A stretch of DNA of 64,000 nucleotides, from contig NZ_JAMBNZ010000005.1 in assembly GCF_023715365.1 (NCBI RefSeq), positions 62,001 to 126,000 on the forward strand, given 5' to 3'. The position numbers and the translations under genes are program-made. Shown here piece by piece: positions 2,998 to 35,848 of this stretch. Each line of letters starts with the position of its first letter. Within the stretch, counting starts at the first letter, position 1. This stretch comes from Georgenia satyanarayanai. Its GTDB lineage: Bacteria; Actinomycetota; Actinomycetes; Actinomycetales; Actinomycetaceae. A model generated the notes under the pieces. The model was not told the origin of the DNA, searched no databases, and saw only the letters and a program-made list of their open reading frames with translations.

Positions 2998-3114
2998 CGG
3001 TGCTCCTGGTCCGGGGACAGCGGCCACGGTATCCGCTCCGCGGGGCGGGTGGCCGGGACCTCCGGCACTGGACCAGTGTCACGCCGCCCGTCCCGCTCCT
3101 GCAGGGTGAGGGCC

Positions 3115-3231
3115 ATGAACACCGTGCGCGGCACCGCGGCAGAGCTCGACGACCACCCCGTGCACACCACCGGGGCCCGGCTCGGCGACGCGGCCTGCAC
3201 TCCTTCGGTCGCGCGAGGTACGCGCGGGTGA
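3115..3231 (+). CDS. Possible 38-residue small ORF (doubtful)
   Basis: An ATG preceded by GGGTGAGGG opens a 38-codon frame that ends in TGA one base before the stop of the convergent Uma2 gene. The product resembles nothing I recognise. The next frame reads through with a different plausible peptide, so this could be a decayed gene remnant rather than a functional small protein. Confidence 0.2.
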   Translation: MNTVRGTAAELDDHPVHTTGARLGDAACTPSVARGTRG

Positions 3232-3232
3232 C

Positions 3233-3790
3233 CTATGCCGGCGGTGCGACGAGCGCGCTCGGTACGATGTCGACGGCGAAGGGCCTCCGGAGGTGGGCCG
3301 TGCCCGTACCGGCCACCTCGGCGGCCGTGACGTACTTGCCGTCCACGAGGTCGAGCGCGAGGACGGCCGGCTCCCGCGGGTCGACGAGCCAGTACGACTC
3401 GACGCCGGCCTCCTCGTACTTCGAGCGCTTGAGGATGTGGTCCTTGCGTCGGGTGGACGGCGAGAGCACCTCGACGGCGAGCGCGAGCGGCTTCGTGACG
3501 TTCTTCGTACCGGGATCGTCGCGGACGACGAGCAGGTCGGGCTGCAGGGAGGTGCGGCGGTCCGGGCGCCAGTCGAAGGGCGCGAGCAGCACCTCGAAGA
3601 CGGGCCGGCAGGCGGCCCGCAGCAGGAGGTGCAGGTTGCCGACGGCGCGCTGGTGCGCCCGCACCGGGGCCGGGGTCACGAGGAGGAGCCCGTCGAGCAG
3701 CTCGTACTGCAGGCCGTCCTCGGGGATCCGGTCGAGGTCATCGACCGTCCACTCCTCGCCCGTGCGCGGCATGACCGTCATGGCGCCCAT
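3233..3790 (-). CDS. Uma2 family (DUF820) putative endonuclease
   Basis: This 185-residue protein matches the Uma2/DUF820 family, a PD-(D/E)XK-fold group abundant in actinobacteria and cyanobacteria and assumed, not proven, to be a nuclease. Visible elements are YELLDGLLLVTPAP near residues 29-42, LQPDLLVVRD with the active-site Asp, LALAVEVLSPSTRRKD with the Glu, and the distal K...Y...GVESYWLVDP block. The ATG at 3788-3790 follows GGGAGG. It lies between the flavin reductase and the nan genes as a single gene with no partner toxin, antitoxin or methylase. Uma2 genes often occur as scattered copies, so its presence inside the sialic acid island may be accidental. Confidence 0.85.
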   Translation of the reverse strand: MGAMTVMPRTGEEWTVDDLDRIPEDGLQYELLDGLLLVTPAPVRAHQRAVGNLHLLLRAACRPVFEVLLAPFDWRPDRRTSLQPDLLVVRDDPGTKNVTKPLALAVEVLSPSTRRKDHILKRSKYEEAGVESYWLVDPREPAVLALDLVDGKYVTAAEVAGTGTAHLRRPFAVDIVPSALVAPPA

Positions 3791-3819
3791 GGTCCTCCCT
3801 CACCGCCGCACTGTCAGCA

Positions 3820-3844
3820 CCTGCCATCACCCGATCGTGGCAGG
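3820..3844 (-). terminator. Weak hairpin downstream of nanE
   Basis: CCTGCCA (3820-3826) can pair with TGGCAGG (3838-3844) across an 11-base loop, 40 bases past the nanE stop. It sits where the nan operon should end, but the stem is only 7 bp. Confidence 0.3.
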
Positions 3845-3884
3845 AGTGGCCGCGGCGCGAGCGGGCGATCCACAGGGGGCAGCG

Positions 3885-4565
3885 CTAGCCGCCCGTCACA
3901 GCCTCGTGGAACCAGCTGGTGATGGTCGTCGGGTGGGTGATCGCCGTGCCGACCACGACGGCGAAGGCCCCCCGGTCGATGGCGTCCCTCGCCTGGGCCG
4001 GGGTGTGGACGCGCCCCTCGACGACGACCGGTCGCCGGCAGCGGGAGACCATCTGGTCGATGAGCTCGACGTCGGGCCCAGGGGTCTTCTCCCGCTCGCC
4101 CGAGTAGCCGGCCAGCGTGGTCCCGACGACGTCGGCGCCGGCGTCCTCCGCGGCGAGGGCGTCGTCGAGGCTGCCGCAGTCGGCCATGACGAGGACGCCG
4201 GGGTGCTGCTCGCGCAGACCGGCGATCGTCTCGGCGAGGCTGCGCCCGTCCGGGCGCGGGCGGCGGGTGCCGTCGAGCGCGACGATGTCCGCCCCGGCCT
4301 CGGCCACCGCGAGCGCGTGCTCGAGGGTGGGGGTGATGAAGACGTCGTCCTCCCCGTCCTTCCACAGGCCGGTGAGGGGGACGTCGGTGGACCCGGCGAT
4401 GAGCCGGATGTCCTCCAGCCCCTGGGCCCGCAGCCCGGCCGCTCCCCCGGCCACGACGGCCTGGGCCATGCGCTGCATGATCTGCGGCTCGCGCAGCGGC
4501 TCGCCGGGGTAGGCCTGGCAGGAGACGATGAGGCGCCCGCGCAGGCGCTCGAGGACCGGTGACAT
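3885..4565 (-). CDS. nanE: N-acetylmannosamine-6-phosphate 2-epimerase NanE
   Basis: NanE interconverts N-acetylmannosamine-6-phosphate and N-acetylglucosamine-6-phosphate, the step after NanK in sialic acid breakdown. The 226-residue length is typical of this TIM-barrel family. Signatures include LIVSCQA at residues 12-18, LTGLWK at 64-69 with the catalytic Lys69, ALDGT, ADCG in the middle and VVEGR near residue 190. The ATG at 4563-4565 is preceded by GAAGGA. It is the last gene of the leftward operon, 17 bases after nanK. Identity as NanE rather than another barrel enzyme is supported both by motifs and by its position next to nanK and nanA. Confidence 0.95.
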   Translation of the reverse strand: MSPVLERLRGRLIVSCQAYPGEPLREPQIMQRMAQAVVAGGAAGLRAQGLEDIRLIAGSTDVPLTGLWKDGEDDVFITPTLEHALAVAEAGADIVALDGTRRPRPDGRSLAETIAGLREQHPGVLVMADCGSLDDALAAEDAGADVVGTTLAGYSGEREKTPGPDVELIDQMVSRCRRPVVVEGRVHTPAQARDAIDRGAFAVVVGTAITHPTTITSWFHEAVTGG

Positions 4566-4582
4566 ACGGGTTCCTTCGGGGT

Positions 4583-5563
4583 TCAGTCGCGCGCGTCGAG
4601 GGCGGTGCGGGCAGCACCGAGGACGGCGGCCACCGGGCCGAGCGCGGAGGGACGGACGGGGATGTCGGCGAGCGGCTCGATGAGCTCCGCGCGCAGGGCG
4701 GCGTCCATGGGCCCCCACCACAGCGGCCCGGCCTGGCTCATGCCGCCACCGACGACGACGACGGCCGGATCGAGCACGGTGACGGCGCCGGCCACGGAGC
4801 GGCCCACGGCGACGGCGGACTCCCGCACGGCGCGCTCGGCGACCTCGTCCCCGGCGGCGGCGCGGGCGCACACCTCACGGGTGTCGGCGACGGCCGCGTC
4901 ACCGCCCAGGCGCAGGTAGTGGCGGTGGAGGGCCGGGCCGGAGCCGAGGGCCTCGAGGTGGCCGGGGCGTCCGCACCCGCAGCGCAGCCCAGTGGCGTCG
5001 GGGCTGGGCTGGTGGCCCAGCTCACCCGCCACGTGGTGCGCACCGCGCAGCGGACGGCCACCGAGGACGACGCTCGCGCCCACCCCGGTGCCGACGGCGA
5101 CCATGAGGACGCTGTCCGCGCCGGCCGCGGCGCCGAGCCAGACCTCGCCGCCGGCGTGCGCGTCGACGTCGTTCTCGACCGTGACGGTGCCCTCGCCGAC
5201 GACGTCACCCAGGCGGGCACGCAGCCCGCCACGCACGTCGGTCCCGGTCCACCCGCGGATGGCGTCGGTGGCCGAGAGGATCGTGCCGGTCGTCGTGTCG
5301 ACGACGCCGGCGGTGCCGACCCCGAGCCCGCTCACGGCGACGGGCCCGGAGAGCTCCGTCGTCGTGCCGTCGGGCGCGGTGAGGGTGCCGCCGTGGGCGA
5401 CGACGTCACGCACGAGGCCGGCAACGGCGTCGAGCACCGCCTCCGGCCCGGCGGTGGCGGGGGTCGGGACGGAGCGGACCGGGCCGACTGCCCCGTCCGC
5501 GCGCACCAGGGCGGCCGCGGTCTTCGTTCCTCCGAGGTCGACCCCGACGACGACGTCGCTCAC
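4583..5563 (-). CDS. nanK: N-acetylmannosamine kinase NanK (ROK family)
   Basis: NanK phosphorylates the N-acetylmannosamine released by NanA. The 326-residue ROK-family sugar kinase shows the ATP-binding loop DLGGTKT at residues 9-15, the catalytic Asp132 in VENDVDAH, GELGH at 180-184 and a zinc-site block CGCGRPGHLE at 195-204. In the usual ROK pattern CxCGxxGCxE the third Cys is replaced here by His202, which can still ligate zinc. I start at the GTG at 5561-5563, preceded by AGAGAGG. It lies between nanA and nanE; a strong hairpin sits in the 118-base gap after nanA. Its specificity is inferred from this context, since ROK kinases vary in substrate. Confidence 0.9.
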   Translation of the reverse strand: MSDVVVGVDLGGTKTAAALVRADGAVGPVRSVPTPATAGPEAVLDAVAGLVRDVVAHGGTLTAPDGTTTELSGPVAVSGLGVGTAGVVDTTTGTILSATDAIRGWTGTDVRGGLRARLGDVVGEGTVTVENDVDAHAGGEVWLGAAAGADSVLMVAVGTGVGASVVLGGRPLRGAHHVAGELGHQPSPDATGLRCGCGRPGHLEALGSGPALHRHYLRLGGDAAVADTREVCARAAAGDEVAERAVRESAVAVGRSVAGAVTVLDPAVVVVGGGMSQAGPLWWGPMDAALRAELIEPLADIPVRPSALGPVAAVLGAARTALDARD

Positions 5564-15408: not shown

Positions 15409-15505
15409 CTACCCGCACCTTGGTACTGGTCATGGCGCCCCGGTGAGTCCAACCCGCACGACCCACCGGGCGCCCTCTCGGGCGAAGTCGCCCGGAAAGG
15501 TTCAC

Positions 15506-18500
15506 ATGTCACTGATGACGAGACGACGCGTGGCGGCCGGCCTGGCCGCCGTGCTCACGACCGGCCTGCTGGGCGTGACTCCGGTCCACGCCGCCGAGAA
15601 CGCCCGCGACTACGACGCCGCCTGGGGAGGGGAGCCCTTCTACGAGGAGCAGCAGCTGGCGACAAACGGCGAGGGCTTCGCCAACTACCGCATCGCCGCG
15701 CTCGCCGTGGCGAACAACGGGGACGTCCTCGCGTCCTACGACGGGCGACCGACGGCCGCGGACTCCCCCGGCCCCAACTCCATCCTCCAGCGGCGCAGCA
15801 CCGACGACGGCGAGACCTGGGGGGAGCAGACCGTCATCGCCCAGGGCAAGGAGGAGGCACCGATCCACGGCTACTCCGACCCCAGCTACGTCGTGGACCG
15901 GGAGACCGGCTCGATCTTCAACTTCCACGTGTACTCGCTGGACCGCGGCTTCGGCAACAGCCAGCCCGGGACGGACCCGGAGGACCGCAACGTCATCCAC
16001 GCCAACGTCGCCCGCTCCGACGACAACGGCGAGACGTGGACGCACCGGACGATCACCGCTGACATCACCACGGACGTGGAGACCTGGCGCAGCCGCTTCG
16101 CGGCGTCCGGTCAGGGCATCCAGCTGAAGTACGGTCCCCACGCGGGCCGCCTCATCCAGCAGTACACGATCGTCAACACCGCGCTGAACACCTACCAGGC
16201 GGTGAGCGTGTACTCCGACGACCACGGCGAGACCTGGCAGGCGGGTGAGCCGGTCGGCACCGGGATGGACGAGAACAAGACCGTCGAGCTGTCCGACGGC
16301 CGGGTCATGCTCAACTCCCGTGACTCCCAGCGCTCCGGGTTCCGCAAGGTCGCGATCTCCGAGGACGGCGGACACTCCTACGGCGAGGTCACCCTCGACC
16401 GGGAGCTTCCCGACCCGGCCAACAACGCCTCGATCGTCCGGGCCTTCCCGAACGCCGAGCAGGGCTCGGCCGAGGCCAAGGTTCTCCTCTTCTCCAACGC
16501 CGCCAGCTCCAGCACGCGGAGCAACGGCACCATCCGGATGTCGTGCGACGACGGCCGCACCTGGCCCGTCGCGCGCACCTTCCAGCCCGGCGGCATGGCG
16601 TACTCGACGCTCGTCACCCAGCCGGACGGCAGCATCGGCCTCCTCTACGAGCCCGACGCCGGCTACGGCGGCATCCGCTACGCGAAGCTCAACCTCGCCT
16701 GGCTCGGCGGAGTCTGCGCCGCCGTCGCGGCCGACGACGTCGCGACCGGCCCCGGCACGACGGCGGACGTTCCCGTGACGGTGACCAACCAGACGTCCGA
16801 GGACCTCACCGGTGCGGCGCTGTCCCTCGACCTGCCCGAGGGCTGGGACGAGGCCGGTGCCGAGGTGCCGACCGTGGCCGCCGGCGCCTCCGCCACGGTG
16901 ACCGTCCGGGTCACGGTGCCCGACGACGCCTTCGCGGGCCAGTACCCCGTCGACATCACGCTGACGACGGACCAGGGCACGTCCTCCGGGTCCCTCACCG
17001 TCACGGTCGACGCCGCTGAGGGCGAGGTCCTCACCGTCGTGCCGAGCGTGACCGACGCGAGCGCGAGCGGGGAGTACCTGCCCGGGGAGCGGCTGTCCTT
17101 CGCCTACCGGGTCACCAACATCTCCGACGAGATCGTGTCGGTCGTCCCGCAGTCGGCGAACCTGGAGGGCTTCAACCCTCCCGGGGCGCCGAACTGCCGC
17201 TTCCAGAACCTCGCGCCGGGCACGAGCTACACCTGCACCACCGGGTACCGCACCCTGACCCAGGACGACCTCGACGCCGGCTCCTTCACGCCGCAGACCT
17301 CGTGGACCGCCCTGCGGGGCAGCTACTCCGGCCCGGAGATCGCCACGCTCGAGCGCAACGCCCCCACCGTCCCGGTGAGCGCGCCGGAGAACCTCCTCCC
17401 GCAGGACCAGCTGACGGTCGCCGACGTCTCCAGCGAGGAGACGACGCAGGCACAGACCCCGGCGACGAACGCGATCGACGGTGACCCGGGGACGATCTGG
17501 CACACCGAGTGGGACGACGCCATGGGTCCCCACCACATCACCCTCGACCTCGGCGGTGACTACACGGTCCAGACCCTGCGCTACCTCGCCCGACAGACCG
17601 GCGGCACCAACGGGATGCTGCGGGACTACGCCGTGCGCGTCTCCGCCGATGGGCAGAGTTGGGGCGAGCCGGTTGCCGAGGGCATGCTCGCGCAGTCCAC
17701 CGCGCCGCAGACCATCGAGCTCGAGCCGGCCGAGGGCCGCTACGTGCGCCTGGACTTCCTCACGTCCTACAGCGACTGGAGCAACCACTTCGCCTCGGCG
17801 GCCGAGCTCAACGTCCAGGCAGCGCCCGTGGAGGAGCCGGAGGAGCCGGTCGTAACGCAGCGGTACGGGTTCTTCCTCAACGACGGCTGGGACGGTAAGC
17901 CCGAGCACGTGTTCCAGTACGGCCGGTACACCGATGAGGTGCTCATCGGTGACTGGGACGGTGATGGCCGGGACACGATCACCGTGCGCCGGGGGAACCG
18001 CTTCTTCGTCAGCAACGCCCCGCGGGGCGGGGTGGCGGACAGCGTGTTCAGCTACGGGCGTGCGGGTGACGTCGTCCTGGTCGGTGACTGGAACGGGGAC
18101 GGCACCGACACCCTGGCGGTGCGTCGCGGGGCCCAGTACCACGTGAAGAACTCCCTGGCGGGTGGGAAGGCGGACCACGTCATCACCTACGGCCGCGCCG
18201 GTGACGTGGTCATGGTCGGTGACTGGGACGGCAACGGGAGCGACACCTTCGCGGTGCGGCGCGGGGCGACCTACTACGTGAAGAACTCCATGCGTGGTGG
18301 GCCCGCGGACCGGACGTTCACCTACGGCCGGGCGACGGACGTGACGCTGGCCGGTGACTGGGACGGCAACGGCACCGACACCTTCGCGGTCCGGCGTGGG
18401 AATGAGTACTTCGTGAAGAACTCCCTCGCCGGTGGTCCCGCGGACTTCTCCGTGGCGTTCGGCCGCGCCGGTGACGAGGTGCTCGTGGGTGACTGGAACG

Positions 18501-18541
18501 GCGACGGCCGCGACACCCTCGGCGTGCGCCGCACCCCGTAG
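15506..18541 (+). CDS. Secreted multidomain sialidase (GH33) with CBM32 and C-terminal tandem repeats
   Basis: This 1,011-residue exo-sialidase releases sialic acid from glycans outside the cell. The signal peptide is residues 1-29 (ending TPVHA). The six-bladed catalytic domain (about 30-400) has a YRI motif near residue 60 in place of Y/FRIP, Asp boxes near 98, 171, 237, 285 and 346 (three read S-x-D-x-G-E-T-W), and the LYEPDAGYGGIRYAK segment with the catalytic Tyr/Arg near 380-392. Then follow a NEW3-like Ig domain (400-505), a second Ig-like domain (510-625), an F5/8-type C (CBM32) sugar-binding domain (635-775), and five 45-residue repeats (786-1011). No LPXTG anchor is present. The start has GGAAAGG five bases before the ATG. 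Confidence 0.95.
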   Translation: MSLMTRRRVAAGLAAVLTTGLLGVTPVHAAENARDYDAAWGGEPFYEEQQLATNGEGFANYRIAALAVANNGDVLASYDGRPTAADSPGPNSILQRRSTDDGETWGEQTVIAQGKEEAPIHGYSDPSYVVDRETGSIFNFHVYSLDRGFGNSQPGTDPEDRNVIHANVARSDDNGETWTHRTITADITTDVETWRSRFAASGQGIQLKYGPHAGRLIQQYTIVNTALNTYQAVSVYSDDHGETWQAGEPVGTGMDENKTVELSDGRVMLNSRDSQRSGFRKVAISEDGGHSYGEVTLDRELPDPANNASIVRAFPNAEQGSAEAKVLLFSNAASSSTRSNGTIRMSCDDGRTWPVARTFQPGGMAYSTLVTQPDGSIGLLYEPDAGYGGIRYAKLNLAWLGGVCAAVAADDVATGPGTTADVPVTVTNQTSEDLTGAALSLDLPEGWDEAGAEVPTVAAGASATVTVRVTVPDDAFAGQYPVDITLTTDQGTSSGSLTVTVDAAEGEVLTVVPSVTDASASGEYLPGERLSFAYRVTNISDEIVSVVPQSANLEGFNPPGAPNCRFQNLAPGTSYTCTTGYRTLTQDDLDAGSFTPQTSWTALRGSYSGPEIATLERNAPTVPVSAPENLLPQDQLTVADVSSEETTQAQTPATNAIDGDPGTIWHTEWDDAMGPHHITLDLGGDYTVQTLRYLARQTGGTNGMLRDYAVRVSADGQSWGEPVAEGMLAQSTAPQTIELEPAEGRYVRLDFLTSYSDWSNHFASAAELNVQAAPVEEPEEPVVTQRYGFFLNDGWDGKPEHVFQYGRYTDEVLIGDWDGDGRDTITVRRGNRFFVSNAPRGGVADSVFSYGRAGDVVLVGDWNGDGTDTLAVRRGAQYHVKNSLAGGKADHVITYGRAGDVVMVGDWDGNGSDTFAVRRGATYYVKNSMRGGPADRTFTYGRATDVTLAGDWDGNGTDTFAVRRGNEYFVKNSLAGGPADFSVAFGRAGDEVLVGDWNGDGRDTLGVRRTP
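17861..18538 (+). repeat. Five tandem 45-codon (135-bp) repeats in the sialidase C-terminus
   Basis: The GDW(D/N)G(D/N)G core recurs at 17948, 18083, 18218, 18353 and 18488, exactly 135 bases apart. Each unit reads roughly xxFVKNSxxGGxADxxFxYGRAGDxVLVGDWxGDGxDTxAVRRG. The D-x-D-G-x-x-D/N core is calcium-loop-like as in FG-GAP/VCBS or beta-propeller repeats. Such C-terminal modules occur on secreted actinobacterial hydrolases and probably attach the enzyme to the cell surface or glycan; that role is inferred. Confidence 0.9.
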
Positions 18542-18562: not shown

Positions 18563-18594
18563 CGCAGGACCCCGGCGACCGCCGGGGTCCTGCG
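18563..18594. terminator. Bidirectional terminator between sialidase and flavin monooxygenase genes
   Basis: Perfect 14-bp arms CGCAGGACCCCGGC (18563-18576) and 18581-18594 with loop GACC lie between two convergent genes, 21 bases past the sialidase stop and 6 bases from the opposing stop. It can end transcription from both sides. Confidence 0.85.
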
Positions 18595-18600
18595 TGCGTC

Positions 18601-19617
18601 TCAGACGGTCGCCAGGGCCGCCGGGATCCAGCCGAGCGCCGGCGCCACCTCCCGCGCGAGGAGCTCCACCGAGCGGAGCACCTCCCGGTGGGGCGGGTCG
18701 ACGGAGTGGACCTGGAAGGACAGGTGGGTCGCCCGCGCGACGGCTGGGTCGGCGAGCAGCCCCGCCGTGACGGTGGCGGGCGTCCCGACGTGCGAGTCGG
18801 TCGCCGCGACGAGCTCGGCGGTGGACAGGCCCACGGCCGGCCGGCCCGTCATCCGCTCGACGAGGGGCGCGACCCTCCGCAGGCCGGTCTCGGCGAGCTC
18901 GGCGGCCCGCCGCTCGTCATTGGTGACGACGACGGTGCGGGCCACGCTGATGCGGGGCTCGACCCCGGCCGGGAGGTGCTCGAGGTAGGCGTCGACGAGC
19001 CGGTCCTGGAGGGAGCCCAGCGCCAGGCCTGGCTCCTCCGCCGGACGCGGCTGGGTGCGCGAGAGCATGAGCCCGTGGCCGCGCCGCCCCGCCTCCACCG
19101 CCCACGGCTCGGAGAAGGTCCCGATCCACACGCGCTCGGCGAGCGTTCCCGCCGGCGGGTACAGCGCCCGCCCCTCCGCGACCGGCTCCCCTCGCAGGGC
19201 GGCCTCGAGCCGGTCGAGCTTGGCCGCGAACACCGCGTGCCGGTCGGCGACGTCCAGGCCGAGAGCCGCGAAGGCGCCCGGTGAGCCGCCGGAGGCGAGG
19301 CCCAGCTCCACCCGTCCCCTGCTCAGGTGGTCGAGGACGGCGGCGTCCTCCGCCACGCGCACCGGGTCCTCGAGGGCGAGGGTGACGACACCGGTGGTGA
19401 GCCGCACCCGGGAGGTGAGCGCGGCCGCGTGGGCGAGGAGGACGAGGGGCGAGGGCAGCCCGCCCTCGCGGCCGTCCAGGTGGTGCTGCGCGACGGCGAC
19501 GGCGTCGAAGCCGGCGGCCTCGGCCGCGCGGACCTGCTCCAGCGCCAGCCGGTAGCGCTCGGCCGGCGGGGCGTCGTCGAGCACCCGGGTGAAGAAGCCG
19601 AGCTGCGGGCGGCTCAT
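18601..19617 (-). CDS. LLM class flavin-dependent monooxygenase (KPN_01858-like)
   Basis: The 338-residue luciferase-like monooxygenase has the TIM-barrel start LGFFTRVLDD, FDAVAVAQHHLDGREGGLPSPLVLLAHAAA and LTTGVVTLALEDPVRVAEDAAVLDHLSRGRVELGLASGG, typical of FMNH2-dependent bacterial monooxygenases. It is the last gene of a seven-gene operon with an ABC importer, a CMD protein and an alkylhydroperoxidase-like protein, joined by a 4-base overlap to the latter. This set matches a gene neighbourhood for which TIGR protein families (KPN_01858 monooxygenase, KPN_01854 binding protein, Avi_7169 and Avi_7170) were defined. As far as I know no substrate is established. A peptide- or amine-like imported compound that is oxidised is a reasonable inference. 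Confidence 0.88.
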   Translation of the reverse strand: MSRPQLGFFTRVLDDAPPAERYRLALEQVRAAEAAGFDAVAVAQHHLDGREGGLPSPLVLLAHAAALTSRVRLTTGVVTLALEDPVRVAEDAAVLDHLSRGRVELGLASGGSPGAFAALGLDVADRHAVFAAKLDRLEAALRGEPVAEGRALYPPAGTLAERVWIGTFSEPWAVEAGRRGHGLMLSRTQPRPAEEPGLALGSLQDRLVDAYLEHLPAGVEPRISVARTVVVTNDERRAAELAETGLRRVAPLVERMTGRPAVGLSTAELVAATDSHVGTPATVTAGLLADPAVARATHLSFQVHSVDPPHREVLRSVELLAREVAPALGWIPAALATV

Positions 19618-20219
19618 GACCGGCTCCGGGTGGGGACCTCAGGCTCCCCGAGGGAGAGCATGAGCCGGTTCGCCCAGCCGAAGAAGGCGGCGCCGCCGAT
19701 GACGTCGAGGATCTCGTCGTCGCCCAGACCCGCGGCGCGCAGCCGCTCGACGTGCGCGGGGCCGAAGCGGACCGGCGTCGCCGTCAGTGCCTCGGCGGCG
19801 GCGACGATCGCCTCCCACCGCTCCCCGAGCTCGGCGCTCGTCCCCTCGTCGAGCAGCCGGTCGACGTCCTCGGGCCGTCCGGAGAGCCGAGCCGCGGCGC
19901 GGGCGTGGACGGAGGCGCAGAACACGCAACCGTTGACGCGGGACGCCGCCGCCGCCGCGAGCTCACGCTCGGCCCGCGGCAGGCCGCCGTCCTCGGTGTA
20001 GAAGATGTCGTTGTCCAGCCGCGTGCGTGCGCCCAGGAGCTCGGGGTCCCGGGCGAGGAGCCGGAAGTAGGCGAAGTCCGCCCGCGCCGGCTCGATGAGC
20101 CCCGCGTAGTGACGCTCGGCGAGCTCCTCCTTGGCGAGCGGCTCGAGCCACGGCACCCAGCCCAGGGGCTCGCGCGTAAAGGCCTCAGGACGGTGGAGCT
20201 CGGGGTGGTCGTGGATCAT
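19614..20219 (-). CDS. Alkylhydroperoxidase (AhpD-like) domain protein, Avi_7169 type
   Basis: This 201-residue protein has the AhpD/CMD helical fold signature: E84-R-E-L followed by VNGCVFCASVHARA with Cys98, Cys101 and His105, the redox pair and proton relay of AhpD-type peroxidases. The C-terminal FFGWANRLMLSLGEP block is typical of peroxidase-related subfamilies. It overlaps both neighbours by four bases and lies between a CMD-domain partner and the flavin monooxygenase. It may reduce peroxides made by leaky flavin turnover or act directly in the pathway; the first is my preferred reading. The family is defined by conserved context rather than by known chemistry. Confidence 0.87.
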   Translation of the reverse strand: MIHDHPELHRPEAFTREPLGWVPWLEPLAKEELAERHYAGLIEPARADFAYFRLLARDPELLGARTRLDNDIFYTEDGGLPRAERELAAAAASRVNGCVFCASVHARAAARLSGRPEDVDRLLDEGTSAELGERWEAIVAAAEALTATPVRFGPAHVERLRAAGLGDDEILDVIGGAAFFGWANRLMLSLGEPEVPTRSRS

Positions 20220-20851
20220 CGCGAGGCTCCCGGGGTGGCGTGGAGGACGGACAGGCCGGCGGTTGCGCGCAGCTGGTAGGTGAGGAACGCGACGAGCTGG
20301 GACAGGGTGACGGTCCCGCTCGCGGTCCAGCCGGCGGCGGCGAGGCGCTCGAGCGCGGCCGGGCGGGCGTCACGCGGGTGCAGGACGAGCAGCCGGGCGT
20401 GCTCGACGGCGGCCGACAACGGCTCGCCCAGCACCTCGCGCGCGACAACGCGGTAGCCGGGCACGGGGACGGACTCCACGGCCAGCCCGGGCTCCCGGTA
20501 CGTCCCGGCCGGGCCGGTGACGGCGGCCGTCCCGGCCTCGGCCACGAGCGTGGCCGCGAGCGCGTCCGACCCTCCGGCGCCCAGCAGCGCCCGGCGGTAG
20601 TGGGACACCGCCCGCTCGTCGCGGTGCAGGCCCGCCACGAAGAGGGCGACGGCGAGCCGGTCGAGGACGGACACCCCGCCGTCGTCGTCGGGCGCGAAGA
20701 GCAGCCGGTAGGCGAGCTGGGCGTTCTCCCGCGCGGCGGGCCGCAGGTCGCGCAGCGCGTCCACGGCGCCGCCGGCGGGGATCGCGGCGAGCTCGCGCAG
20801 GACGTCGGCGCTCACCTCCGGGGCGCGGGTGTGGTCGAGGACGTGGGTCAT
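20216..20851 (-). CDS. CMD domain protein, Avi_7170 type
   Basis: The 211-residue product begins MTHVLDHTR and has a carboxymuconolactone-decarboxylase-like helical domain (about residues 45-115: ENAQLAYRLLFAP, LDRLAVALFVAGLHRDE) but lacks the CxxC pair of AhpD. It ends with TLSQLVAFLTYQLRATAGLSVL, the conserved second helical block. The ATG at 20849-20851 overlaps the ATPase stop (ATGA). It precedes a CxxC-containing relative by a 4-base overlap, so the two may form a heteromer in which only one partner is redox-active. This is inferred from sequence. No characterised member is known to me. Confidence 0.83.
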   Translation of the reverse strand: MTHVLDHTRAPEVSADVLRELAAIPAGGAVDALRDLRPAARENAQLAYRLLFAPDDDGGVSVLDRLAVALFVAGLHRDERAVSHYRRALLGAGGSDALAATLVAEAGTAAVTGPAGTYREPGLAVESVPVPGYRVVAREVLGEPLSAAVEHARLLVLHPRDARPAALERLAAAGWTASGTVTLSQLVAFLTYQLRATAGLSVLHATPGASR

Positions 20852-22461
20852 GACTCTCTCCTGGTGGCGTGGGCCGCGGGGACGGCGTCGAGCAGCTCGC
20901 GGGTGTACTCGCTGCGCGGGGCGTGGAAGATCTCGGCGGTCGTGCCGCTCTCGACCACACGGCCGCGCTGCATGACGGTGACGGTGTCGGAGACCTGGCG
21001 GACGACGCCGAGGTCGTGGGAGATGAACAGGTAGGTGAGGCCGCGCTCGCGCTGCAGCTCGGAGAGCAGGTCGAGGATCTGCGCCTGCACGCTGACGTCG
21101 AGGGCGGAGACGGGCTCGTCGAGGACGACGACGCCCGGGTCCAGCACGAGCGCCCGGGCGATCGCCACGCGCTGGCACTGCCCGCCGCTGAGCTCGCGTG
21201 GCCGCCGCCCGTGCAGCTCCGGCCCCAGGGCGACCCGCTCGAGGAGCGCCGCGGCCGTTGCCGCCCGCTCACGCCGGTTGCCGAGCCGGAAGTTGCGCAG
21301 CGGCTCGGCCACGATGTCGAGGACGGTCATCCGGGGGTCGAGGGAGCCGAAGGGGCTCTGGTAGACGAGCTGGACCTGGCGGCGCCACTGGCGGCGCGCC
21401 TCCCCGCGCAGCGAGGCGACGTCCGTGCCGTGGACGAGCGCCGTGCCCGCCGACGCCGTCTCCAGGCCGAGCAGGATGCGCGCCGTCGTCGACTTGCCCG
21501 AGCCGGACTCCCCGACGACGGCGTGCGTCGTCCCGGCCGGCACGGTGAGGCTGAGGTCGTCCACGGCCCGCACGTGCTGCCCGCCGCGGCCGGTGAAGTC
21601 CTTGCGGACGGAGCGCAGCTCGACCGCGGGGACGGCACCGGGCGGCGGCACCGGCGGGGCGGGCCGCAGCGGCGCCGGGTTGAGCGCCGGGGCGTCACGC
21701 ACGAGGCGCCGGGTGTAGTCGCTGCGGGGAGCGCCCACCACCTCGCTCGCCGTCCCGGAGTCGACGACCCGCCCGCCCTGCATGACGACGATCCGGTCGG
21801 CGCGCTCGGCGGCCGCGGCGAGGTCGTGGGTGACGAGGAGGACGCCGGTCCCGTCCTGCGCGCGCAGCTCGTCGAGCAGGTCGAGGATGCGCCGCTGGAC
21901 GGTGACGTCCAGGGCGCTGGTCGGCTCGTCCGCGATGAGGAGCTGGGGCCGGAGCGCGAGGGCCGCCGCGATGAGCACCCGCTGGCGCATGCCCCCGGAG
22001 AGCTCGTGCGGGTAGGCGGCGGCCACGCGCGGCCCGGGCAGGCCCACGCGCTCGAGCAGCTCGGCCACCCGGGCCCGCACCGCGGCCTCGTCCCGCTCCC
22101 CGTGCACCCGCAGGGTCTCGGCGACCTGCCAGCCCACGGTCCGCAGCGGGTCGAGGGAGCTGCCCGGGTCCTGCGGCACGAGCCCGATGCGCCGGCCCCG
22201 CACGTCCTGCAGCCGCCGGTCCGACCAGCCGCGGATGTCGGTGCCGTGCAGGAGGATCTGTCCCGAGGTGACCGTTGCGCCCGGGGCGAGCAGCCCGAGG
22301 ACGGCGTGCGCCGTCGTCGTCTTGCCCGAGCCGGTCTCCCCCACCACCGCCACGACCTCCCCCGGCGCGACGGTGAGGCTCACGCCGTCGACGGCGGTGT
22401 GCTGCCCGCCCCGGCGGGTGCGGTAGGTGACCGACAGGTCGCGGACGTCGAGGAGGCTCAT
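20848..22461 (-). CDS. Double ABC ATPase (DppD-DppF fusion)
   Basis: This 537-residue protein carries two full family 5 ATPases in one chain. Domain 1 (residues 3-255) has Walker A GETGSGKT at 41-48, LSGGMRQR and ADEPTSALD; domain 2 (280-525) has Walker A GESGSGKS at 317-324, LSGGQCQR and LDEPVSALD. A Pro/Ala-rich linker joins them. The signature of domain 1 carries Met (LSGGM) and of domain 2 Cys (GGQC), small departures from LSGGQ. It powers the two permeases encoded just upstream and overlaps neighbours by four bases on both sides. Fused paired ATPases are common in actinobacterial oligopeptide-type systems. Confidence 0.93.
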   Translation of the reverse strand: MSLLDVRDLSVTYRTRRGGQHTAVDGVSLTVAPGEVVAVVGETGSGKTTTAHAVLGLLAPGATVTSGQILLHGTDIRGWSDRRLQDVRGRRIGLVPQDPGSSLDPLRTVGWQVAETLRVHGERDEAAVRARVAELLERVGLPGPRVAAAYPHELSGGMRQRVLIAAALALRPQLLIADEPTSALDVTVQRRILDLLDELRAQDGTGVLLVTHDLAAAAERADRIVVMQGGRVVDSGTASEVVGAPRSDYTRRLVRDAPALNPAPLRPAPPVPPPGAVPAVELRSVRKDFTGRGGQHVRAVDDLSLTVPAGTTHAVVGESGSGKSTTARILLGLETASAGTALVHGTDVASLRGEARRQWRRQVQLVYQSPFGSLDPRMTVLDIVAEPLRNFRLGNRRERAATAAALLERVALGPELHGRRPRELSGGQCQRVAIARALVLDPGVVVLDEPVSALDVSVQAQILDLLSELQRERGLTYLFISHDLGVVRQVSDTVTVMQRGRVVESGTTAEIFHAPRSEYTRELLDAVPAAHATRRES

Positions 22462-23336
22462 CGCTCGCTCCCCAGGGAGCGGCTGACCCGGTTCGCCGAG
22501 AGGACGACGGCGACGATGACGAGCCCGGGCAGGGTGGTGACCCACCAGGCCGCGGCGAGGAGGTCGCGGCCCTGGGCGATGATCATGCCCCACTCCGGGT
22601 CCGGCGGGGTGACGCCGTAGCCGAGGAAGCCGAGGGTGGACAGCGCGAGGATCGCGGTGCCCAGCTGCATCGCCGCGAGCGCGACGACGGGTCGCAGGGA
22701 GTTGCGCAGCACGTGGCGCCACAGCACCGACAGGATGCGCCCGCCGCTGCCGTAGGCCGCCTCGACGTACTCGGTGGCACGCACCTGGACGACCTCGGCC
22801 CGCACGAGCCGGGCGAAGCCGGCCACCGCGCCGACACCGACGGCGAGCGCCGCGTTGACGGTGCCCGGGCCGAGGAGGACGACGACGGTGAGCGCGAGCA
22901 GCAGGCCGGGGATCGCGAGGAGGACGTCGACGACCCGCATGAGGACCTCCTCGACGATCCCGCCGACGGTGCCGGCGACGACCCCGAGCACGGTGCCGGC
23001 GGTCAGCCCGACGGCCACGGCGACGAGGGCGCCGGAGAGCGACTCCGACGCGCCGTGGACGACGCGGGAGAACAGGTCGCGCCCGTTGGCGTCCGTGCCG
23101 AAGAGGTGCTCCCCGCCGGGGGCCTGGAGTCCCGCGCCGACGCTCGTGTACGCGTCGAAGGGGGCCAGGATCCCGGGCAGCACGGCCCACAGGAGAACGG
23201 TGGCGATGACGGCCCAGGCGAGCACGAGGCCGACCGGGACCGCGCGGCGCCTGTGGCGCGCGACGGTTTCGGACTGCGGGGCGAGCGTGACGGGGACCGT
23301 GGGCGCCGCGGGGCTCCGGGTGGTCGTCGCGGTCAT
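22458..23336 (-). CDS. ABC transporter permease (DppC-like)
   Basis: A 292-residue DppC/OppC-type permease with a basic cytoplasmic N-terminus, a first membrane span (about residues 35-55), the HLFGTDANGRDLFSRVVHGA motif diagnostic of this family, and four to five further spans. The EAA loop is around residues 185-210 (TEYVEAAYGSGGRILSVLWRH region). The C-terminus GLVIVAVVLSANRVSRSLG is also typical. Start ATG 23334-23336 overlaps the preceding permease gene (ATGA), as does its stop with the ATPase gene. It forms the channel with the DppB-like subunit. Substrate is unknown but belongs to the monooxygenase operon. Confidence 0.92.
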   Translation of the reverse strand: MTATTTRSPAAPTVPVTLAPQSETVARHRRRAVPVGLVLAWAVIATVLLWAVLPGILAPFDAYTSVGAGLQAPGGEHLFGTDANGRDLFSRVVHGASESLSGALVAVAVGLTAGTVLGVVAGTVGGIVEEVLMRVVDVLLAIPGLLLALTVVVLLGPGTVNAALAVGVGAVAGFARLVRAEVVQVRATEYVEAAYGSGGRILSVLWRHVLRNSLRPVVALAAMQLGTAILALSTLGFLGYGVTPPDPEWGMIIAQGRDLLAAAWWVTTLPGLVIVAVVLSANRVSRSLGSER

Positions 23337-24346
23337 GTCCGGGCTCCTTCCAGCAGGTTGACGACGGCGGGCGCGGCGACGACGGCGGACGGGGGCGCCG
23401 TCGTCGTCCTCGCCCTCCGCAGGCGCGGGTCGAGGACCGGGTAGAGGAGGTCGACGGCGAGGTTGACGGTGACGAAGGCGAGCGCCGCGACAAGGACGAT
23501 CGCCTGGATCACCGGCAGGTCCTGCGCGGCGACCGCGAGGTTGGTGAGGCGGCCCAGCCCGTCGCGGCCGAAGACGGACTCGGTGACGACCGAGCCGGCG
23601 ATGAGCTCGGCGACGAGGAGCCCGCTGATCGTCAGCACCGGCAGCAGGGAGTTGCGGGCGGTGTGCCGGCTCAGCGTCCACCAGCGCGAGGCGCCCTTCG
23701 CCTCGACGACGTGGACGAAGGGCCGGGTGGCGACGTCGTCGAGGGTGCGCAGGACGATCTGGGCGAGCGGTGCGCTCACCGGGACGGCGAGGGTGAGGAC
23801 GGGCAGCACGAGCTCCTGCCAGCCCTCGGCCCCGATGACCGGCACCCAGCCGAGCCGGAAGGAGAAGACCTGGAGCAGGACGATGCCGAGCCAGAACGCC
23901 GGGACGGACACGAGCAGCGACGGGACCGCGGTGATCGTGTTGTGCAGCCACGGGCTGCGGGCGAAGGTCGCCGCGAGGGCGAGGGCGAGGACGACGGCGA
24001 TTGCGGCCGCCACGACGAAGGCCAGGGACGCGAGCTGGAGCGTGGCCGGCACGGCGGCCGAGATGCGGTCCAGGACGGGGGTGGCCGTCTCGACGGAGTA
24101 GCCCAGGTCCCCCTGCAGCGTCCCCGCCAGGGCGTGGACGTACTGGAGGAGGAGCGGGTCGTCGACGCGGTAGTACTCGCGGATCGCCGCGACCTGGTCG
24201 GCGGACAGGCCCAGCTCAGGGTTCTCGAACTTGATGAGGATCCCGTCCCCGGGCAGCGCGCCGAGGAGGAGGAAGGACAGCGTGTAGGCGGCCCACAGGA
24301 CGAGGAGGGCCTGGCCCACCCGTCCGGCGACGTAGCGGGCGGTCAC
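23333..24346 (-). CDS. ABC transporter permease (DppB-like)
   Basis: A 337-residue DppB/OppB-type permease starting at a GTG that overlaps the binding-protein stop (GTGA). It has the N-terminal span ALLVLWAAYTLSFLLLGALPGD, the family loop with LLLQYVHALAGTLQGDLGYS, several further spans, an EAA-type loop (VHVVEAKGASRWWTLSRHTARN) and the family ending VDLLYPVLDPRLR, followed by an extra Ala/Thr-rich tail of about 25 residues. The tail is unusual but still upstream of the next overlap. It pairs with the DppC-like subunit encoded next. Confidence 0.92.
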   Translation of the reverse strand: MTARYVAGRVGQALLVLWAAYTLSFLLLGALPGDGILIKFENPELGLSADQVAAIREYYRVDDPLLLQYVHALAGTLQGDLGYSVETATPVLDRISAAVPATLQLASLAFVVAAAIAVVLALALAATFARSPWLHNTITAVPSLLVSVPAFWLGIVLLQVFSFRLGWVPVIGAEGWQELVLPVLTLAVPVSAPLAQIVLRTLDDVATRPFVHVVEAKGASRWWTLSRHTARNSLLPVLTISGLLVAELIAGSVVTESVFGRDGLGRLTNLAVAAQDLPVIQAIVLVAALAFVTVNLAVDLLYPVLDPRLRRARTTTAPPSAVVAAPAVVNLLEGART

Positions 24347-25974
24347 TGCTCCTCCAGCCACGTGTCGTACAGGCGCAGGCGCCCGACCGGCTCCCACCCC
24401 AGGCCGTGGACGTGCGGCCCGGCGGCGTAGGTCTGCGGCATGTCGTACAGCGGGATCGTCAGGGCGTTGTCGAGAAGGTACTCCTGGACCTCGGCCGCCT
24501 TCGCGTAGCGCTCCTCCGTGCCGGGCAGCGAGGTGATCTCCTCGAGGAGGCCGTCGAGCGTCTCGTCGGTGGAGAGGAGGTAGTCGCGCTGGCTGCTGTG
24601 GAAGGCGCTGTAGAGGACGTCGGGGTCCACGCGCCCGACGTGGCTGATGAGGACGCCGACGTCGACCGGGTCCTGCTGGCGCTGGACGGCGGTGGCGGGA
24701 TCGGGGAGCTCGATGTGGAGCTTGGCGCCGACCGCCTCCCACTGCTGGGCGACGAGCTCGGCCGTCTCCTGGCCGAGGGGGAAGACCGCTCCGACGATCG
24801 TCGTCAGCTCCAGGCGCTGCCCGTCCTTGACGCGGATGCCGTCGGGCCCACGCTTCCAGCCGGCCTCGTCGAGCAGGCGGTTGGCCTCGTCCGGGTCCGC
24901 CGTGAGCTTGTCGGACAGGTCGGTGTAGCCGGTGGCTCCGGAGCTGAGCGGTGAGGTGGCCACCGGGTAGTTGTCGGTGAAGAGCGTGTCGACGATCGCG
25001 CCGGTGTCCGTCGCCTTGAGCAGCGCCTGGCGGACGGGCAGCTCGGTGAGGACGGGGTTGTCGGGCCGCAGCGCGATCTGGGGGCTGACGCCGTTGGTCT
25101 GCGGGGCGTACAGCTGGTAGCCGGCTGCCTCGACCGTCGGCTCGTCGTAGGCCTGGACCGAGCGCACCGCATCCGCCTGGCCGGAGGTGAGGGCGCCGAT
25201 GCGCACGGAGTCCTCGGGGGTGACGACGATGTGGATCTCGTCGAGGTACGCGCGGCCCTGGTGCTCCTGGTGCGGTGGCGCCCAGTCGTAGTCCTCCCGC
25301 GCGGTGAGCGTGTACTCCTGCTCGGGCACCACCTCGGTGACGGTGAAAGGGCCGGTCGCGACGACGTTCTCGAGCTGGCACTGCTCCTCGTAGGGCAGCT
25401 CGTAGGTGGCGGGCCCGACGATCGCGGCGCCGACGACGGAGGTCGCCTGGAGGAAGCCGGGCACGGGGGCGTCGAAGGTGAAGGCGACCGTGTGCTCGTC
25501 GCGCACCTCGGAGCCGGCGTAGTTCGAGACGAACTCCTGGCTCGCGAGCCCGAGCTCCTCGTCACCGAGCCCGAGGTGGTCGAAGTTCGCCGCGACGTGC
25601 TCGGCGGTCAGCGGGGTGCCGTCGGAGAAGGTGACGTCCTCACGCAGGTGGAAGACGTACTCGGTGGCGTCCTCCGAGACTTCCCAGGACTCGGCGAGCC
25701 ACGGGTGGATCTCGCGGGTCTCGGGATCCTGGAAGGTGAGCTTGTCGGCGATCTGGTTGAGGACGGTGGCGACCGGGTAGTAGCCGGAGCCGCCCGCGTA
25801 GAAGCACGTGGGGAACTGGTACTCGAGGAAGGTGAGGGTGCCGCCCTCGCGGGGTGCGCCGTCGTCGGCGGCTGCCTCGCTCGTCGCACCGGGGCTGCCG
25901 CTACAGGCGGCGAGGACCAGGGTCGCGGCGGCAGCGGTGGCTGCGGCGAGCGTGCGTCGATGGGAGATGCTCAT
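24343..25974 (-). CDS. Family 5 substrate-binding lipoprotein, KPN_01854-like
   Basis: The 543-residue binding protein heads the seven-gene operon. It has a lipoprotein signal MSISHRRTLAAAT... with lipobox LAAC (Cys24). The mature domain starts GGTLTFLEYQFPTCFYAGGSGYYPV, which differs from peptide binders and fits the KPN_01854-type family found with LLM monooxygenases. DVTFSDGTPLTAEHVAANFDHL and the C-terminal LTIPLYDMPQTYAAG are SBP_bac_5 features. GAGAGGA precedes the ATG at 25972-25974. A 7-bp-arm palindrome at 26002-26019 is the only upstream regulatory element I see; no regulator gene is in the operon. The ligand is unknown. Confidence 0.9.
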   Translation of the reverse strand: MSISHRRTLAAATAAAATLVLAACSGSPGATSEAAADDGAPREGGTLTFLEYQFPTCFYAGGSGYYPVATVLNQIADKLTFQDPETREIHPWLAESWEVSEDATEYVFHLREDVTFSDGTPLTAEHVAANFDHLGLGDEELGLASQEFVSNYAGSEVRDEHTVAFTFDAPVPGFLQATSVVGAAIVGPATYELPYEEQCQLENVVATGPFTVTEVVPEQEYTLTAREDYDWAPPHQEHQGRAYLDEIHIVVTPEDSVRIGALTSGQADAVRSVQAYDEPTVEAAGYQLYAPQTNGVSPQIALRPDNPVLTELPVRQALLKATDTGAIVDTLFTDNYPVATSPLSSGATGYTDLSDKLTADPDEANRLLDEAGWKRGPDGIRVKDGQRLELTTIVGAVFPLGQETAELVAQQWEAVGAKLHIELPDPATAVQRQQDPVDVGVLISHVGRVDPDVLYSAFHSSQRDYLLSTDETLDGLLEEITSLPGTEERYAKAAEVQEYLLDNALTIPLYDMPQTYAAGPHVHGLGWEPVGRLRLYDTWLEEQ

Positions 25975-26001
25975 CGGGGCGGTCCTCTCGGGCGACGGTC
26001 G

Positions 26002-26019
26002 AGCGTTCGGTTGAACGCT
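26002..26019. promoter_or_regulatory. Palindromic operator candidate upstream of the monooxygenase operon
   Basis: AGCGTTC-GGTT-GAACGCT is an 18-bp site with perfect 7-bp arms, 27 bases before the binding-protein ATG. It is placed where a repressor would control the seven-gene operon. The regulator is not encoded next to it. Confidence 0.5.
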
Positions 26020-26129
26020 TGACCATCAGCGTGGAGGCCGGCCGCCGCCGTGTGAGCCGGAGGTCGGGCGAAATCTCAGCGCGTGAGAAGCGCGGGGCTC
26101 ATGGCCGCGCGCGATGAGACGGCGCCGGC

Positions 26130-27017
26130 TCAGCGACCACCGAGGAGGAGGACGGCGTAGGGGCCGCCCGCGCCCATCGCGTAGCCCACGCCCACGTGGG
26201 TGTACTTGCTGTTCAGCATGTTGGCCCGGTGGACGCTGGAGTTCTTCCACCAGTCGACCATCCAGCTGGTGATCGCGCTGGAGGACATCGAGGCGCCGCC
26301 GGTGTTCCGGACGATGTTCTCGCCGGCCGCGGACCAGCCGCCGCCGATCTGGGACCGGTAGCTCGGGTTGTGCTGGAGGGTCTGGTTGGCGGCCATCCAC
26401 TCGGCCCAGCCCTGGGCGACCTGGTCGAGCGTGGCGTCGTTACCGAGCGCGTGCAGGCCCTGCTGGGCACGGAAGTCGTTGACCATGGCGCCGATCGCGC
26501 CGCGCTCACCGCCCTGGCCGACGGAGACGGCCGCCGCGGGGGCGTCGCCCTCGGCCTCCTCGCTGGTCTCCGCGGCGGGTGCCTGCGCGCGGGACGCGGA
26601 CCGGCTCGCGGCGGCGGCGGCCTCCTCGCGGGCGGCGGCGGCCTGGCGCGCGGCCTCCTGCTCGGCCACCAGCGCCGCGACGGCGTCGGGGATGTCCTGG
26701 ATGTCGCCCTTGCTCAGCTCGACGTCGACGTCCATCGGCTCGAGCACGAGGTCCGCGGACCCGGGGACCGTGATGCCGGGGGTGACGCCGTGTCCGGTCT
26801 CGAGCCCGAGGGCGGCGAGGTCGGCGCGGGCAGACGAGGCGCCGTCGTCGACGACGGCCGCCGCGCTGACGCCCGCGACGAGGACGACGGCGAGCGCACC
26901 GGCCAGACCCGCGCGGTAGCGGCGCTGGAGCGGCGCGGCGACCTGCTCGTACGGTTGCAGCCGCTGCGCGAGACGCTCGACTCGGGACACGGTGCGGTGG
27001 GACGACGGCTCGGCCAC
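26130..27017 (-). CDS. CAP/SCP-domain membrane-anchored protein
   Basis: The 295-residue protein has a cytoplasmic N-terminus, one membrane span (about residues 37-57), a 100-residue Ala/Glu-rich, partly coiled segment, and a C-terminal CAP domain (about 172-295) with NDFRAQQGLHAL, HNPSYRSQIGGGWSAAGENIV, the SVHRANMLNSKYTHVGVGYA core and final YAVLLLGGR. Conserved His and Glu of the CAP pocket are present. Bacterial CAP proteins are extracellular or wall-facing with ligand-binding or unproven hydrolytic roles. The start is a GTG at 27015-27017 after GAGAAGGG. It appears monocistronic. The long charged stalk suggests it reaches through the peptidoglycan. Confidence 0.88.
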   Translation of the reverse strand: MAEPSSHRTVSRVERLAQRLQPYEQVAAPLQRRYRAGLAGALAVVLVAGVSAAAVVDDGASSARADLAALGLETGHGVTPGITVPGSADLVLEPMDVDVELSKGDIQDIPDAVAALVAEQEAARQAAAAREEAAAAASRSASRAQAPAAETSEEAEGDAPAAAVSVGQGGERGAIGAMVNDFRAQQGLHALGNDATLDQVAQGWAEWMAANQTLQHNPSYRSQIGGGWSAAGENIVRNTGGASMSSSAITSWMVDWWKNSSVHRANMLNSKYTHVGVGYAMGAGGPYAVLLLGGR

Positions 27018-35480: not shown

Positions 35481-35848
35481 TGGTGGAGATGGCGGGAATC
35501 GAACCCGCGTCCGACGGCGCAGAACCAGAGCTTCTCCGGGTGCAGTCTGCTGCGATTTTCTCGGCCCCAGCTGTCACGCAGACAAGCAGCTGACAGGCCC
35601 AGTCACCTGGAAGTCCCCGTAGCCCCGGTGACGAGGGCTACGAGCAGTGGCTCTCTAGCTGACGCCAGGAACCGGGTCGAGAGCTAACCCGGGCTGACGG
35701 ACTTACGCGGCTCGCTCAGGCGGCGAGGGCGAAGTCGGTGCGCTTGGAATCGGCACCTATTGGTTTGCAGAGGGCGTTATCGAGATAACTCTGCATCCTC
35801 GACCCGCTTCCTCTGGCACGACGTCCGTCGTCGAAACCGATCATCCCC
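35481..35848 (-). ncRNA. ssrA: tmRNA (transfer-messenger RNA)
   Basis: The 368-nt RNA rescues stalled ribosomes together with SmpB. The 5' end (35848 leftward) reads GGGGAUGAUCGGUUUCGAC and the 3' end is a tRNA-like arm GGUUCGAUUCCCGCC... with genomically encoded CCA (35483-35481). The acceptor ends pair over seven positions with one G-U. The tag reading frame at 35754-35716 encodes ADSKRTDFALAA followed by UGA, an actinobacterial-type proteolysis tag ending ALAA. smpB lies 2.4 kb upstream on the same strand, separated by a DUF2207 gene and a DoxX-like gene. It must not be read as a tRNA gene. Confidence 0.97.

Follow-up and report, generated by a model that had tools for sequence, protein, structure and literature searches.

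The 64,000-nucleotide stretch of the Georgenia satyanarayanai genome analysed here (contig NZ_JAMBNZ010000005.1, positions 62,001 to 126,000 of the forward strand; referred to as the window) carries an operon of seven genes on its minus strand, at 18601-25974. The genes encode an ATP-binding cassette (ABC) importer, a luciferase-like flavin monooxygenase (LLM), an AhpD-like protein and a CMD-domain protein. The operon is real and conserved; it is of a catalogued kind that lacks an accepted function, and its gene order is that of the Georgenia group. The best-supported reading of its function is import of an organosulfur compound combined with flavin-dependent cleavage of a C-S bond, and we consider this reading reasonably probable.

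The translation of the window gives seven open frames with no internal stops, and all six gene junctions are 4-base overlaps, one GTGA and five ATGA, as the original prediction had stated for every junction from the binding protein to the monooxygenase. Because of these overlaps, the recurrence of the gene set in other genomes, a hairpin downstream and a near-palindrome upstream, the seven genes are likely to be co-transcribed (Table 1). The LLM scores 431.4 bits against TIGR04027 (cut-off 412.9), the solute-binding protein (SBP) of the importer 597 bits against TIGR04028 (cut-off 468.5), the CMD protein 159.8 bits against TIGR04029 (cut-off 100.75) and the AhpD-like protein 274.9 bits against TIGR04030 (cut-off 233.15). 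All four thus exceed curated cut-offs, which bears out their earlier assignment to the KPN_01854/KPN_01858/Avi_7169/Avi_7170 families. NCBIfam labels all four as hypothetical equivalogs, i.e. families without an assigned function. The closest named relatives of the LLM are from Oceanitalea stevensii (95%) and Georgenia satyanarayanai (90%).

Table 1. Genes of the operon and flanking elements in the window.
Feature	Position	Strand	Basis
SBP lipoprotein of the ABC importer, 543 aa	24343..25974	-	TIGR04028, PF00496 (SBP_bac_5), predicted structure
ABC permease 1 (Opp/Dpp/Nik type), 337 aa, GTG start	23333..24346	-	sequence, family models
ABC permease 2, 292 aa	22458..23336	-	sequence, family models
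ABC ATPase, two fused nucleotide-binding domains, 537 aa	20848..22461	-	PF00005 twice
CMD-domain protein, 211 aa	20216..20851	-	TIGR04029
AhpD-like protein, 201 aa	19614..20219	-	TIGR04030
LLM, 338 aa	18601..19617	-	TIGR04027
Hairpin, 13-14-bp stem, no U tail, between convergent genes	18563..18594		sequence, RNA fold
Near-perfect 12-4-12 inverted repeat, 28 bp, 5' of the SBP gene	25997..26024		conserved sequence

A comparison of 87 loci, 80 of them from a homologue search and seven from annotated regions, demonstrates that the gene set recurs far above chance expectation. Judged from phmmer placements at thresholds of our own choosing, and with imperfect gene calling, 63 of the 87 loci have the order SBP-P1-P2-ATP-LLM-CMD-AhpD (P1 and P2, permeases; ATP, ATPase). 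The window departs from this commoner order by having CMD-AhpD before the LLM, an arrangement present in three loci, all from Georgenia or Oceanitalea. LLM-CMD-AhpD alone was detected in ten loci, one of which (L055) has a partial ATPase match; an importer with an LLM and without CMD-AhpD is found in three, all from Mycetocola; the LLM stands alone in three, one being a 3-kb contig; and five loci are partial or mixed. L062, L068, L085, L096 and L100 are short contigs. In the Mycetocola locus L132, which is of the importer and LLM type, the LLM is followed by unassigned or housekeeping genes. Variovorax L094 and Prosthecomicrobium L117 showed no family-5 importer beside LLM-CMD-AhpD; the genes adjoining it there fall into the clusters of a branched-chain-type permease, of Glyoxalase_3 and of OsmC. 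The catabolic core thus seems to consist of the LLM, CMD and AhpD proteins, and the importer seems to be exchangeable.

The distribution is patchy. A TIGR04027 gene over the cut-off is present in 7 of the 101 family genomes and in 2 of the 396 phylum genomes searched (at most a few candidates per genome were scored in the latter), the genome of the window being counted in both; of the five congeneric genomes covered by the family search, one, G084, has no such gene. In Agromyces L079 and L105, an NtaA/DmoA monooxygenase, a TIGR04027-type LLM and a SufS-family-like enzyme form a compact cluster, near which no importer or CMD-AhpD was detected. One of the records compared, L139 (CP125156.1), is a 5.37-Mb Klebsiella pneumoniae sequence labelled as a plasmid, which is chromosome-like in its size and in its content of fdnG, benBCD and other metabolic genes.

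The binding lipoprotein, the two permeases and the fused ATPase clearly belong, as far as sequence can tell, to one importer, with which the LLM, AhpD and CMD proteins are encoded together. The SBP has a lipobox-like LAAC ending at residue 24, and its AlphaFold model (mean predicted local distance difference test score, pLDDT, 81.4) has the fold of family-5 SBPs. Its structural neighbours, which include binders of peptides, nickel, glutathione, opines and EDTA (ethylenediaminetetraacetate) as well as proteins named for haem, score alike and do not narrow the ligand. The permeases are of the Opp/Dpp/Nik class and exceed no cut-off among the matches listed. The two-domain ATPase scores above cut-off with NikD, with NikE and with two subfamily models, probably because the scores of its two domains add up.

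In the LLM, residues R11, R126, S186, R187 and H45/H46 are invariant or nearly so in the family alignment, and the conserved arginines would suit an anion as substrate, with or without sulfur. The AhpD-like protein retains E86, C98, C101 and H105, which are kept at 99-100% of 79 sequences; Glu, Cys-x-x-Cys and His make up the catalytic set of AhpD. No Pfam model matches the CMD protein. An AhpD-type fold is predicted for it by AlphaFold (mean pLDDT 86.7), and in its family (76 sequences) no Cys is found among the positions conserved at 90%, so that the AhpD-type catalytic set is absent from them. The description of the pair as a peroxidase-like module therefore calls for caution, as the AhpD-type residues are kept in TIGR04030 but not in the CMD partner. 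Because CMD and AhpD are fused into a single protein in Pantoea and Erwinia, and Klebsiella has a protein whose size and annotation make the same fusion likely, the two proteins probably act as one complex. The operon, its family assignments and the wider idea that uptake is coupled to flavin oxidation and an AhpD-type module are all supported.

The evidence for sulfur includes the genes surrounding the operon. In 50 genomes, family matches within the locus of about 21 kb were compared with the chance expectation from genome-wide counts. Three families tested in this way were picked after their genes had been seen in the loci, and for this reason Poisson values for the following figures are not plain probabilities: Glyoxalase_3 (PF13468), with 70 matches in the 50 genomes, lies in 18 of the 50 loci against 0.22 expected, a count with which the coordinates of the genome-wide matches agree; OsmC, with 252 matches, in 13 against 0.86, where the linked copies come from phmmer seeds and the genome counts from the Pfam model; and TIGR03860 (NtaA/DmoA), with 134 matches, in 8 against 0.45. 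Five of these last eight loci are from Agromyces, and in each such genome the sole TIGR03860 match sits in the locus. Sulfur markers, scored at thresholds of our own choosing, occur in 14 of 40 loci and in none of 40 control stretches of the same genomes (p 1.5e-5), a test that is partly circular in that several of the marker seeds were taken from the tested loci. With outside seeds alone (TauA/SsuA, TauC/SsuC, SsuD and SfnB), the count is 5 of 40 against 0 of 40 (p 0.027), one TauA match (61.7 bits) being just above the threshold of 60. The control stretches, one in each of 40 of the 50 genomes, were picked by hand at round coordinates that lay away from listed matches.

By annotation, the type locus in Allorhizobium is surrounded by tauA, an importer of the taurine type and acyl-CoA dehydrogenases, and Variovorax L136 has a CysB-family regulator and a sulfurtransferase nearby. 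Rhizobium L059 contains an O-acetylhomoserine sulfhydrylase over its cut-off and an SsuD-like gene. An O-acetylhomoserine-sulfhydrylase-like gene of Mycetocola L064 scores 478.7 bits, below the cut-off of 495.1, and in Agromyces L103 a SufS-family-like, pyridoxal-phosphate-type enzyme follows AhpD by 5 bp. The locus in genome G443 has the gene order of the window and was found by the phylum search, independently of the linkage test. Its sulfur genes lie within about 25 kb of the TIGR04027 gene: a cystathionine gamma-synthase over the cut-off, together with cystathionine-beta-synthase-like and O-acetylhomoserine-sulfhydrylase-like genes below theirs. Two NtaA/DmoA monooxygenases over the cut-off and another binding protein of family 5 are encoded in the same region, as are aldo-keto reductase-like proteins and a protein with the N-terminal domain of acyl-CoA dehydrogenases.

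In Nonomuraea L091, a lanthionine-synthetase-C-like gene (2998-4590 of the locus, plus strand) is located just 5' of the operon; frames equal to it in length precede the SBP gene in L101 and L109, the likeness being one of length only. The lanthionine-synthetase-C-like neighbour possibly hints at thioether-containing ligands.

What is new here is the linkage of the operon to Glyoxalase_3, to NtaA/DmoA monooxygenases and to sulfur genes, and the position of the G443 operon beside genes of cysteine/homocysteine synthesis. In the PMC literature, as far as its texts were available, no paper was found that links the TIGR04027-04030 families to sulfur, and neither the TIGR04027-04030 names nor the terms 'CMD domain protein' or 'alkylhydroperoxidase domain protein' retrieved a paper.

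The sulfur metabolism of the host is consistent with a demand for reduced or organic sulfur. In its genome (99.99% complete, in 196 contigs), no match was found to PF01507, the phosphoadenosine phosphosulfate (PAPS) reductase domain, a model matched in 14 of 14 control genomes, nor to TIGR02055 or the sulfite/nitrite reductase domain PF01077, each matched in 11 of 14; an O-acetylhomoserine sulfhydrylase is found over its cut-off. Assimilation of sulfate or sulfite is thus probably beyond the host. Of the 12 relatives tested, which include genomes both with the operon and without it, 9 lack PF01507, or 10 of 13 when the host's own genome is included. This pattern points to a need of the host for sulfur in reduced or organic form; it does not show that the operon meets this need.

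Several observations weigh against an organosulfur function, beginning with the late choice of the three linked families and the partly circular marker test. No sulfur marker at all is present in 26 of the 40 loci, a CysB-type regulator over the threshold is present in none of the 40, and the annotated surroundings in Klebsiella, Erwinia and Roseateles show no sulfur gene. The genes of Paracoccus PD1222 adjoin sarcosine oxidase and folate one-carbon genes, which would suit a C-N substrate, and the NtaA/DmoA enzymes comprise C-N cleavers besides C-S cleavers. The best matches of the LLM are on the luciferase side, and the 25 matches listed include neither the SsuD nor the SfnG model. Absence of PAPS reductase is not tied to the operon, because it is shared by relatives that have no TIGR04027 gene over the cut-off (G084, G002, G022 and G052), and the operon-bearing congeners G008 and G065 have a PF01077 domain, which might belong to a sulfite or nitrite reductase. 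No expression data were found for the host organism.

For the substrate, the reaction and the role of the AhpD/CMD pair, we infer the following course of events. The importer would take up an anionic, carboxylated organosulfur compound, the likeliest ligand being a thioether, for example a cysteine with an S-substituent or an S-modified short peptide. The LLM would be supplied with reduced flavin mononucleotide (FMNH2) by a reductase encoded elsewhere, and its invariant arginines would bind the substrate anion. Oxygenation next to the sulfur would then cause the C-S bond to break, giving a thiol and an aldehyde. Any disulfide, sulfenate or peroxide formed as a by-product may be dealt with by the AhpD/CMD complex by means of its Cys-x-x-Cys, and in other lineages the Glyoxalase_3 and OsmC proteins might help with aldehyde and peroxide. 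The freed thiol or sulfide would subsequently enter cysteine/homocysteine synthesis. The host genome yielded no sulfite reductase, and for this reason any sulfur that the operon supplies there should be released as a thiol or sulfide rather than as sulfite.

Of the organosulfur, amine and peptide-like compounds proposed originally, the neighbourhood favours the first, and an amine remains as the main rival. The imported compound would then be an aminopolycarboxylate, an opine or an N-alkylated amino acid, whose C-N bond is cleaved by the LLM in the manner of the degradation of EDTA and NTA (nitrilotriacetate), a pathway with the EppA importer and the EmoA/NtaA monooxygenase. The operon resembles that pathway in combining a family-5 SBP importer with an LLM; the EDTA binder EppA (6wm6, 6wm7) and the opine binder AgaA (6hlx) are family-5 proteins and structural neighbours of its SBP, the arginines of the LLM suit a polycarboxylate, and both the Paracoccus locus with sarcosine oxidase and the C-N cleavers among the NtaA/DmoA-family neighbours speak for such a substrate. 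However, the window LLM is by cut-off not a member of that family (25.3 bits against the TIGR03860 cut-off of 279.7), and the O-acetylhomoserine sulfhydrylase, cystathionine beta- and gamma-synthase, tau/ssu and single CysB-type neighbours would be left unexplained, so that we judge an amine unlikely. Catabolism of another carbon compound or xenobiotic by luciferase-type ester, ketone or aldehyde chemistry, or detoxification of an antibiotic, with the AhpD pair guarding against leaked peroxide, would agree with the homology of the LLM, with the Glyoxalase_3, aldo-keto reductase and short-chain dehydrogenase/reductase neighbours and with the patchy distribution. It is a slightly less likely account again, and it conflicts with the repeated sulfur neighbours and with the sulfur island of G443, where the gene order is the same.

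Uptake of a metallophore or metal chelate with oxidative release appears improbable. The SBP (after TIGR04028) and the permeases score best, below the cut-off, with nickel families, staphylopine families also match, the ATPase scores over the NikD/NikE cut-offs as described above, and single loci contain iron genes (an iron ABC permease in Paracoccus, fhuE in Pantoea). Yet no metal-related family is found among the recurrent neighbour clusters that were annotated, which are part of all clusters. In K. pneumoniae, according to the available part of the report, KPN_01858 and TauC both become more abundant in iron limitation (PMC7194016); the joint rise is weakly suggestive of a shared control by sulfur starvation and also of a link with metal. 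In Klebsiella AqSCr exposed to chromate, tau and ssu genes are up together with two alkyl hydroperoxidases, which may or may not include the protein of this operon (PMC8195247); the observation was given no weight.

The statement that these families had never been assigned a substrate is nearly correct, the exception being PCX02514 of Klebsiella (PDB 8K74), a full-length homologue of the window LLM. A 2024 report, cited here from its available part, describes cleavage of poly(acrylic acid) (PAA) with NADPH, a loss of PAA mass and inactivity of all five tested mutants (PMC11354265). Oxidation of PAA or oligo-acrylates would on these grounds be a candidate function; we regard it as very improbable. 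The kcat is 0.00214 per second, measured with 14-28 uM enzyme over 5 h, and NADH, FAD, FMN and FMNH2 did not support the reaction; PAA is unlikely to be the natural substrate because turnover is very slow and FMNH2 ineffective for an enzyme of the luciferase type. Among the residues proposed for PCX02514, R10 (88 of 88 sequences), R125 (87 of 88), S186 and R187 (88 of 88 each) have their equivalents in the window, whereas H253 is V in the window and F in 64 of 88 family members. In its available part, the report does not mention the operon, and the assay did not address the importer or the AhpD/CMD partners.

Comparison with known systems places the proposed organosulfur pathway as follows. 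As in the catalogued TIGR04027-04030 neighbourhood, the window has four families over their cut-offs, two permeases and a fused ATPase, and its content is similar to that of the Allorhizobium ampelinum S4 locus and of Klebsiella, in which CMD-AhpD is one protein; the difference lies in the order, usually LLM-CMD-AhpD and here CMD-AhpD-LLM. SsuEADCB and TauABCD likewise combine an ABC importer with an oxygenase for the use of organic sulfur during starvation, and some genomes have genes of this type close to the operon. In contrast to the SsuABC/TauABC type, the window SBP belongs to PF00496 (family 5), no FMN reductase is found among the seven genes, the LLM is from another branch and an AhpD/CMD pair is added. 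In Bacillus, the yxe/ytm genes salvage S-alkylcysteines by an importer and LLM enzymes for S-substituted cysteines. The Pantoea locus, with an annotated N-acetyltransferase, amidohydrolases and an NtaA/DmoA-type LLM nearby, resembles this system, whereas the seven genes of the window include no N-acetyltransferase or deacetylase and have another importer class and LLM family.

The elements flanking the operon suggest how it might be controlled. The downstream hairpin (RNA fold -42.3 kcal/mol, z -6.15) is a probable bidirectional terminator; a scan for sigma-70 promoters and terminators, the latter requiring a T run, gave no match at the operon. The upstream 28-bp near-palindrome, in which 11 of 12 arm positions pair around an inner 7-4-7 core at 26002-26019, is identical in all four Georgenia-group loci compared (the window, L053, L054 and L058) and is probably the operator of the operon. 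A second block at 26069-26089, between the SBP gene and a CAP-domain protein gene, is also identical in the four related loci compared. The palindrome core and this block each have one exact copy in the 3.72-Mb genome; since genome searches gave no second site at <2 mismatches for the core or <3 for the block, no co-regulated genes were found. With Rfam at the gathering threshold, no riboswitch was found upstream of the operon in the 64-kb window, the single match being a tmRNA gene (35481-35848, minus strand). The CAP-domain gene (26130-27017, minus strand) is directly 5' of the operon on the same strand. The convergent gene on the other side (15443-18541, plus strand) encodes a 1032-aa protein of sialidase-like architecture with BNR repeats, NPCBM-associated and F5/8 type C domains, and repeated GDWNGDG-like motifs near its C-terminal end.

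The four NCBIfam families without an accepted function occur in soil, plant-associated and enteric bacteria. By combining the results above, it is possible to propose, tentatively and with less than even confidence, that they form a widespread and previously unrecognised sulfur-scavenging route, in which a family-5 importer, a C-S-cleaving LLM of the luciferase branch and an AhpD/CMD thiol-redox complex, with Glyoxalase_3/OsmC accessories elsewhere, would deliver sulfur at the thiol or sulfide level and work without reduction of sulfate or sulfite. Placing the operon in organosulfur metabolism makes the TIGR04027-04030 families testable by ordinary growth assays, and it questions poly(acrylic acid), the sole published substrate found. 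If true, it would account for the presence of a flavin monooxygenase and an AhpD pair in organisms that are seemingly unable to reduce sulfate or sulfite.

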